From Roseomonas sp. (GTDB lineage: Bacteria; Pseudomonadota; Alphaproteobacteria; Acetobacterales; Acetobacteraceae), in NCBI GenBank assembly GCA_020249435.1, contig JADCFQ010000012.1, positions 157,484 through 221,483 on the forward strand: a stretch of DNA of 64,000 nt. The letters are read 5' to 3'. Every line of letters begins with the position of its first letter. Position 1 is the stretch's first letter. A program made the translations under genes and the position numbers. A model generated the notes under the pieces. That model ran no database searches, had not been told where the DNA came from, and saw nothing but the letters and a program-made list of their open reading frames with translations. Below, piece after piece: positions 52,029 through 64,000 of this stretch.

Positions 52029-54104
52029 TCAATGCCCTTCCTCGATTTCAATCACCGCATCCGCGGCAAAGGCGCCCTGCCCTGCTGGCAGCACCAGCAT
52101 GGGGTTCACATCAACGGAGGCCAAGCGCGGTCCCGCCGCCACGGCAAAACGCGATAGCGCGGCGAGTGCGCCCGACAGCGCCTTCACATCGGCCTTGGGT
52201 TTGCCGCGCGCACCATCCAGCAGCGGGAAGCCCTTCAACGACCGGATCATGGCTTCCGCTTCGGTGGCGTTGAAGGGGCAGCGGCGGAAGGCGACATCCT
52301 TCAGGATTTCGATGAAAACGCCGCCCAGCCCCACCATGGCAACAGGGCCAAAGACAGGATCGCGCAGCACCCCAAGCGCCATTTCAACGCCGCCGGTGAT
52401 TTGCTTGGCAATCAACACACCTTCAATGCGCGCCTTGGGTGCATGCTGCGCGGCGCGGGCCAGCAATGTCGCATGCGCTTCGCGCACTGCAGCGGCATCC
52501 GCAATATTCAAGATCACACCGCCGATTTCGCTTTTGTGCAGGATATCGGGCGAGAGGATTTTCGCGACCACCGGATAGCCCATCGCGTCCGCCGCGCGCG
52601 CCGCTTCATCAGCACTGGTGCAGGCGTGTTCTGGCACGGCAGCAACGCCAGCCGCGGCCAGAAGGCGTTTGGCTTCGGCTTCCGTTGGGGTTTGTGCGGG
52701 CAGAAAAACATTCGGCAGCGCGCCCACAGCGCCCGCATCCTGGCGCGCGAAATAAGCGCCGAAGCGGCCCATCGCCGCAATGGCATTCACCGCGCGCGTC
52801 GGGTCTTCGAAAACAATGAAGCCGTCTTCTTCATATTCGCGCACCTTCTCACGCGAACAAATCGCCGACAGCACCCAAAGCCGATCGCGACGTTTGGCGA
52901 TGGCATCACGCATGAAGGGCCGGAGCTTCGGCGCCATGGAGGTGGAACCGCCCGTCTGCGTCAAAAACACCAGGACAGAAGGATAACCACCATCGCCGGC
53001 GGTGGCTTCCAGGAAGTCGCCGAAAAGCTCGGTCTGGTTCACCGCTTGCGCGGTGCAATCCACTGGGTTGCGCGGCGCGCAAAAGCTGATCAGGCCACGC
53101 AGCTTATCCTGCGACGCCTGCGGCATTTCCGGCATGGGCAGGCCAACGGCTTCTGACGCATCGGAAATCAGCACGCCGGCGCCGCCGCTGACTGTCAGCA
53201 CGCCAAGGGAATTATGGGCCGGATAAATGCGCCGCGATGCCGCATAGGCGATATCGAGCATTTCTTCCGTGGTGCGTGCGCGCAAAACACCAAATTCATC
53301 CAGCACAGCTTGTGTCACGGCATCATCACCCGCGATGGAGGCAGTGTGGGATTTCGCCGCAGCACCACCAAGCGCGCTGGCGCCGACTTTCATCATGATC
53401 ACGGGTTTGCGATTGCGTCGCGCCAGATCAAGGGCGGCGATGAAACCGGCACTTTCGCGAATGCCCTCGGCATAGGCGCAGATCACTTCCACTTCCGGCG
53501 CCTGCGCCATCCAACCAATCGCCTCACCCAAGGAGACATCGGCTTCATTGCCGGTGGTGATGCAAACCGTGGTGCCAAGGCCGCGCTGGCGTGCCACGGC
53601 GAAAACATGCGTGCCATAGGCGCCGGATTGGGACGCGATGCCGATATTGCCGCGAATGGGCCAACCCTGTTCGAAGGACAGGGAGAAGATCGGATAGAAA
53701 CCGATTTCCGCATTGAACAGGCCAAGGCAATTCGGCCCCAGCATGCGCATGCCGTGGCGGCGTGCGGCAGCGACCAGCCTATCCTGCATCGCGGCGCCAG
53801 CCTCATCCACTTCAGCGAAGCCAGCGGTGAAGACAATGGCGGATTTGCAGCCGCGCGCGCCAAGATCATCCATGGCCTGGATCGCGGTTTCGCCTGGCAC
53901 GGCGATAATCGCGGCATCCGGCACTTCGGGCAGGGCGGCGACGGAAGCGAAGGCCGGCAGGCCCTGCACGGTTGGGCGATTCGGGTTCACCGGCAAAAGC
54001 CGCCCTTGGAAACCCTGGCTCTGCATATAGGCAATGGGGCGCCCGCCAATGCGCATGGCGTCATCCGATGCGCCGATCACCGCGACAGTCCGGGGACGGA
54101 TCAT
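52029..54104 (-). CDS. Acetate--CoA ligase family protein (NDP-forming acyl-CoA synthetase type)
   Basis: MIRPRTVAVIGASDDAMRIGGRPIAYM; GIASQSGAYGTHVFAVA; C-terminal ATP-grasp. Start placed at 54104 because the longer ORF start (54146) reads through a palindrome. Confidence 0.92.
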   Translation of the reverse strand: MIRPRTVAVIGASDDAMRIGGRPIAYMQSQGFQGRLLPVNPNRPTVQGLPAFASVAALPEVPDAAIIAVPGETAIQAMDDLGARGCKSAIVFTAGFAEVDEAGAAMQDRLVAAARRHGMRMLGPNCLGLFNAEIGFYPIFSLSFEQGWPIRGNIGIASQSGAYGTHVFAVARQRGLGTTVCITTGNEADVSLGEAIGWMAQAPEVEVICAYAEGIRESAGFIAALDLARRNRKPVIMMKVGASALGGAAAKSHTASIAGDDAVTQAVLDEFGVLRARTTEEMLDIAYAASRRIYPAHNSLGVLTVSGGAGVLISDASEAVGLPMPEMPQASQDKLRGLISFCAPRNPVDCTAQAVNQTELFGDFLEATAGDGGYPSVLVFLTQTGGSTSMAPKLRPFMRDAIAKRRDRLWVLSAICSREKVREYEEDGFIVFEDPTRAVNAIAAMGRFGAYFARQDAGAVGALPNVFLPAQTPTEAEAKRLLAAAGVAAVPEHACTSADEAARAADAMGYPVVAKILSPDILHKSEIGGVILNIADAAAVREAHATLLARAAQHAPKARIEGVLIAKQITGGVEMALGVLRDPVFGPVAMVGLGGVFIEILKDVAFRRCPFNATEAEAMIRSLKGFPLLDGARGKPKADVKALSGALAALSRFAVAAGPRLASVDVNPMLVLPAGQGAFAADAVIEIEEGH

Positions 54105-54109
54105 CGCAT

Positions 54110-54153
54110 CTAGAGCATGTGTGCTTCGCATTCGCTCAACATCCATGCTCTAG
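54110..54153. repeat. Intergenic inverted repeat
   Basis: CTAGAGCATG-N24-CATGCTCTAG perfect 10-bp arms. Confidence 0.8.
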
Positions 54154-54167
54154 GTTTTGGTTGGGTC

Positions 54168-54211
54168 GCATTTTCCTGGCCGCCAAGTGTTTCCACTTGG
54201 CTTGAAAATGC
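54168..54211. repeat. 44-nt nested palindromic (REP-like) element, single copy
   Basis: GCATTTTC ctggcc GCCAAGTG tttc CACTTGGC tt GAAAATGC. Confidence 0.85.
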
Positions 54212-54337
54212 TCCAGCGCCGCAAAATCAGCGGCGGATTTTCCGGCACTCAAGGGGCCGCCTTCGGCGGGCATCGCGTCTTCCTCCTGCAATCGGGTGCA
54301 GGGTGGCGCCAGCGCGCGCGGGCGGCAAGGGGTTGAC

Positions 54338-63844: not shown

Positions 63845-63860
63845 CCAGAAGCCTTAGATG

Positions 63861-64000
63861 GTCGCATTTTCCGAGTCGCCAAACGATTCCGTTTGGCTTG
63901 AAAATGCTCTTGCTTACGGTCGCATTTTCCGAGTCGCCAAACGATTCCGTTTGGCTTGAAAATGCTCTTGCTTACGGTCGCATTTTCCGAGTCGCCAAAC
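63861..64000. repeat. Tandem array of 58-bp units carrying the 44-nt nested palindrome (at least 2.3 copies, cut by window end)
   Basis: GCATTTTC cgagtc GCCAAACG attc CGTTTGGC tt GAAAATGC at 63864-63907 and 63922-63965; third copy begins at 63980; linker ctcttgcttacggtc-like. Confidence 0.95.

Follow-up and report, generated by a model that had tools for sequence, protein, structure and literature searches.

The window analysed here, a stretch of 64,000 nucleotides from a freshwater Roseomonas-type genome, contains an acetate--CoA-ligase (ADP-forming)-like gene, the main body of which occupies positions 52029 to 54104 of the minus strand; its assignment is based on orthologs and on NCBIfam matches (NF045494/TIGR02717) that lie below their cut-offs. 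At the 5' end of this gene, positions 54168 to 54211 of the forward strand form a hairpin, here called H2, which reads exactly GCATTTTC-ctggcc-GCCAAGTG-tttc-CACTTGGC-tt-GAAAATGC. A first-pass annotation of the window had described this hairpin as a dispersed copy of an element at 63864-63907 with the same 8-6-8-4-8-2-8 layout; letters and layout both proved correct, and the inner arms of the two copies differ by two compensated pairs. The annotation had also taken the 44 nucleotides to be the element itself. The hairpin is real, but it belongs to a longer unit with its start near 54109, of which it makes up only the 3' half; this is a single two-hairpin mobile unit of 103 bp.

The 5' arm of this unit is H1, a hairpin of 46 nucleotides (54109-54154, forward strand) whose stem is very variable between loci and which was aligned in 25 copies of this genome. 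H1 is joined to H2 by a 13-nucleotide linker (TTTTGGTTGGGTC, 54155-54167, forward strand) with the family consensus nnTTTGTTTGRTC. The 25 aligned copies can be matched over about 108 nucleotides, H1 included, and at about 30 of the roughly 43 loci in this genome a 46-nucleotide H1 stands some 13 nucleotides upstream of H2. The set was widened to 179 copies by including sister genomes, and an H1 with at least 13 of its 19 pairs is present in 93; the length of H1 is nearly fixed at 46 nucleotides and the spacing to H2 is 13 nucleotides in 67 of the 93. In the control for this set, 15 or more H1 pairs were very rare in shuffled upstream sequence. At one further site of the same contig (C4:2526, locus L040) and its orthologs (L081-L088), the place of H1 before an H2 array is taken by a hairpin that resembles a terminator and has a T run; it is conserved between species, and its changes are compensated; the array itself comprises one to three units among sister species.

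The limits of the unit are given by orthologs of the ligase-like gene from Roseomonas-type metagenome genomes. The insert is present in 8 sister species and absent from 11 of the same clade, and the site likewise carries no insert in more distant (outgroup) Roseomonas species. From the ATG to the MIRP codon, occupied alleles measure 169 nucleotides and empty ones 66, a difference of exactly 103 bp in every clade member compared; given that this difference spans H1, linker and H2, the three parts make up one mobile unit. Empty alleles read CATCGCATC-TA-GCGC and occupied alleles CATCGCATC-[TA-GAGC...GCTC-CA]-GCGC, which places the unit, TAGAGC...GAAAATGCTC, at 54111-54213 of the forward strand, with ends that can be shifted within TA/CA. 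The putative TA target would have its left copy at 54111-54112 and its right copy at 54214-54215 (both forward strand), where all occupied species now have CA, so that the duplication is imperfect.

In the empty alleles, the ATG of AGGAGGAAGACGCG-ATG shares the reading frame of the enzyme and lies beyond the insertion site, and the unit therefore sits inside the 5' coding end of the gene, where it has shifted the frame by +1. On the minus strand, the original start AGGAGGAAGACGCG-ATG now opens a reading frame of 45 codons (54136-54273) that runs into the element and ends at a TGA inside H1; the frame and its length are kept in the occupied species. An ATG inside H1 overlaps this TGA (ATGGATGTTGA) in the enzyme frame (54102-54146, minus strand), and translation of the ligase-like enzyme probably restarts there, as judged from the reading frames. 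At its 5' end the gene has been split by the insertion, leaving a short reading frame followed by what is probably a restart.

At least three tandem 58-bp units of linker plus H2, beginning with the element at 63864-63907, carry the GCCAAACG/CGTTTGGC arm variant and form an array at 63860-64000 (forward strand) that runs off the end of contig C4. Since contig C34 begins within the same array variant (C34:1-208), the two contigs are probably neighbours split by the repeat. In the genome as a whole, the pattern GCATTTTC-N6-GCC has 58 exact matches, compared to one for the reversed control pattern, and DNA searches place H2 at 48-49 sites. The proposal of a structured interspersed repeat family is supported, with about 50 copies in the genome and covarying arms. 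A copy-rich clade of about 20 genomes, 2.6-4.2 Mb in size, has 46-101 H2 matches per genome, and the remaining genomes placed in this genus, most of them 5-6 Mb, have 0-7; a search of plasmids for the element gave no match. One sister species with a large genome contains another palindrome family, TTAGAGAGCCGTTTGCGTC...GACGCAAACCGCTCCA (L189, G033:C8).

Covariation between copies had been taken to indicate selection on the folded structure rather than on primary sequence. The covariation is genuine. Across H1 and H2, 24 of 35 pairs show two-sided changes, compared to 14.6 in shuffles, and the covariation score is 0.389 versus 0.154 for shuffled and at most 0.084 for slid sequences. All 19 pairs of H1 are changed on both sides in some of the 25 copies from this genome, with 85.7% of cells paired, while among 43 distinct copies of H2 six pairs show two-sided changes, compared to a mean of 1.4 after shuffling. 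The expectation that inner-arm changes preserve pairing holds for 98.7% of the H2 pair cells, which are standard, and fails in a few copies (9 of 688 cells broken). The hairpin has been maintained over long times, and the H2 arms are constrained in sequence as well, differing by 0.3-2% between orthologous copies. What the covariation establishes is that the palindromes are maintained, and this fits an RNA, a DNA hairpin, a requirement for mobility or templated repair between the arms alike. Selection at the RNA level is only one among several possible reasons for the upkeep of the hairpin.

The two arms diverge in different ways. In orthologous copies, H1 stems differ by 7-12%, like the flanking DNA (9.5%), and their single changes are mostly pair-breaking (145 cells versus 27 compensated doubles). 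Between loci, two-sided differences are six times as frequent as one-sided ones among differences from one paired state to another. We considered that H1 stems might be made anew at each insertion and dropped this idea: the nearest H1 neighbours at other loci are mostly 5-14 of 46 bases apart around one consensus, for which gradual divergence suffices. Even so, gradual divergence does not fully explain why H1 stems differ so much more between loci than H2 arms do (44-52% versus 1-4%). An association of linker base -3 with right-end base +3 (Fisher p 2e-6) might suggest that these two bases pair; this is disfavoured by the common A-A combinations, and subfamilies are the likelier cause.

The copies are mostly intergenic. 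The earlier suggestion that they lie at gene 3' ends describes many of them, as at about 15 of the roughly 43 loci the stop codon of a convergent gene is within 2 nucleotides of the H2 boundary, but not the reported copy itself, which is in a 5' coding end. Orientation to the genes is even: according to gene calls from a simple codon-usage script with approximate starts, 12 copies run along both neighbouring genes, 11 against both, 16 lie between convergent and 3 between divergent genes. This evenness argues against a strand-specific RNA function. TA dinucleotides are under-represented in the window (1,029, where base composition predicts about 2,312) and 774 of them fall in coding sequence, which suggests gene ends and spacers as the tolerated TA sites.

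Other insertion sites are in part comparable to the ligase site. At the stop codon of an hslU-like gene, the empty allele reads TTA-TA-GAAATGAGC and the occupied one TTA-[TA-G...GCTC-CA]-GCCATGAGC, with CA or CG as the right dinucleotide and tandem expansion of H2 in some species. The unit at a locus on contig C42 is absent in one species, and the empty alleles of locus C45:7304 contain extra bases and are not clean. For this family as a whole (family A), the left end reads YTAG, no more than 16 of 88 locus groups have TA as the right dinucleotide, and correlating left with right ends recovered no fixed target-site duplication beyond the end consensus. A sister family (family B) has a similar length, the same two-hairpin layout, the H1 loop GTTCACATGGGTTCAC and a distinct H2 (GAGCATCTTCAC...TCTGAACGCG...TGCTC). 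About ten copies are found in this genome: L276 (C56:134), L277 (C37:19140), L279 (C62:34212), L280 (C33:134), L281 (C30:132), L282 (C15:85895) and L292 (C13:36205), as well as L278 (C45:59882), L285 (C9:60559) and L293 (C25:85423) on the minus strand. At one family B locus, the closest empty allele reads GGGCGT-TA-TCCCAGC and the occupied allele GGGCA-[TA-GAGC...GCTC-TA]-CCCCAGC, a clean TA duplication. Duplication of TA is therefore clear for family B and not for family A.

The 103-bp element has no coding capacity and is polymorphic in its insertion among sister species. IS630-type elements of the genus, one of them in this genome (C23), have TAGAGC at one or both ends, and one transposon of this type appears intact, with 1,051 bp, two overlapping frames and TA-GAGC ends. 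These ends have TAGAGC in common with our element, that is, six terminal bases only. On contig C40 (L070, L296; C40:20100-21110), an IS630-type transposase gene is located directly upstream of an H2 copy that lies 3' of an ftsZ-like gene; the H1 of this copy is unlike that of its orthologs.

In its architecture, the element resembles the CcrM-associated intergenic repeats (CIR) of Caulobacter, Brucella and other alphaproteobacteria. In the account of Chen and Shapiro (2003) given in a 2007 review (PMC2229807), CIRs are about 105-110 bp long and consist of two inverted-repeat arms with a linker, one arm exposing a GANTC site in its loop or close to it; they are dispersed and mostly intergenic, as is the element described here. 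GANTC occurs in the linker and H2 of 60 of 84 loci, at position 22 in the terminal loop (38 of 84) and at position 10 in the internal loop (41 of 84), and is nearly absent from H1. Two differences stand against these similarities. CIRs are described in that account as not occurring within genes, which is an observation rather than a defining property, whereas the reported copy lies within a 5' coding region; and the printed copies of family B carry no GANTC, unlike CIRs as summarized there. On architectural grounds we consider the element best read as a new CIR-like family, the comparison with CIR1-CIR4 being one of descriptions only. In Brucella, Bru-RS1 and Bru-RS2 (103-106 bp; PMC10800456, PMC2267715) are, by description, likewise palindromic repeats of similar length, with dispersed intergenic copies and an association with a TA-duplicating insertion sequence (IS711). 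Among Rfam families, none matched the element at the gathering threshold; the Brucella sRNA CI27 (RF02600) gave a weak, non-significant match (16.4 bits, cut-off 59.8, E 0.11) at 54090-54223 of the minus strand, in which both arms and the linker are aligned.

Taken together, we think it probable that the element is a CIR-like non-autonomous unit of about 103 bp (a MITE) that an IS630-type transposase moves in trans at TA. The combination of H1, T-rich linker and H2 has spread as one unit; it would insert at TA dinucleotides, as the empty sites suggest, and an IS630-type transposase would recognize the TA-GAGC ends. This last step we infer, given that the right end of family A is degenerate and the common termini are short. 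TA in stop codons and spacers would offer tolerated sites and so bring copies to the 3' ends of genes. The folded arms would probably be kept as a requirement for movement or be tolerated as terminator-like structures. Units of linker and H2 can expand in tandem. A comparable element is RUP of pneumococcus, proposed to be moved by an IS630 (PMC2229807). RUP and the Correia/NEMIS MITEs are, like our element, non-autonomous, about 107 bp long and have TA at their ends; in contrast, they fold end to end and have longer terminal repeats, while here two separate arms and common termini of about 6 bp are found. A transposase of the IS5/IS427 type, with target YTAR and duplication of TA, could instead move such a two-arm MITE, as IS711 does in Brucella, where the Bru-RS palindromic repeats are its preferred sites and the TA of YTAR is duplicated (PMC2266754). 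The YTAG at the left end of family A would agree with this, whereas the genus has IS630-type elements with TA-GAGC ends, and we regard the alternative as unlikely. Mobilization of a REP/BIME family by a RAYT (Y1) transposase is disfavoured and very improbable: the short palindromes, high copy number and tandem units are reminiscent of such families, but a search of the genome for Y1 (RAYT/IS200) transposases (PF01797) found none while control genomes matched, and the unit length and the probable TA target do not fit. The GTAG/CGTC superfamilies of REPs (PMC3733652) are abundant palindromic repeats as well; they are 20-40 bp long and their head bears a tag. The CGTC type is the one typical of alphaproteobacteria; neither a GTAG or CGTC head nor the 8-9 bp stem beginning with AT and the CCA tail of CGTC REPs is present in the H2 consensus.

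Two further explanations concern what the copies do rather than how they move. The fold might be selected as a functional RNA, such as a 3' UTR stabilizer, terminator or cis-regulator, in line with the strong covariation of H1, the many copies at gene 3' ends and the conserved terminator-like hairpin replacing H1 at C4:2526. Even orientation, presence or absence between sister species at the tested loci, the mostly pair-breaking changes in orthologous H1 and the lack of Rfam matches at threshold all speak against this, and we consider it quite improbable. Alternatively, copies might be retained for their GANTC sites, which as CcrM sites would have a putative methylation-dependent role in regulation or as chromosome landmarks. 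GANTC is otherwise scarce: the window contains 67 sites where about 200 are expected (0.33), the strongest depletion among 16 comparable 5-base palindromes, and arrays concentrate the sites, with two per complete 58-bp unit and 5 of the 67 falling within 63860-64000. However, 24 of 84 loci lack the site, the reported copy is also free of GANTC, and GAGCC is almost as frequent as GAGTC; such retention seems to us a doubtful explanation, and a distinctly weak candidate.

Returning to movement by an IS630-type transposase, the CIR and Bru-RS repeats could form one class of two-arm MITEs, moved at TA by IS630- or IS5-type transposases and spreading GANTC, with one arm constrained in sequence and the other in structure only; we put this forward tentatively, as a possibility that falls somewhat short of being likely. 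The copy kept within a gene here and in 8 sister species amounts to a natural experiment in the tolerance of such inserts. The mechanism of CIR mobility was described in the 2007 review as still to be ascertained, with more information needed (PMC2229807). With about 20 related genomes offering occupied and empty sites, a clean TA duplication in family B and IS630-type elements as candidate partners, this question can now be tested in these organisms.
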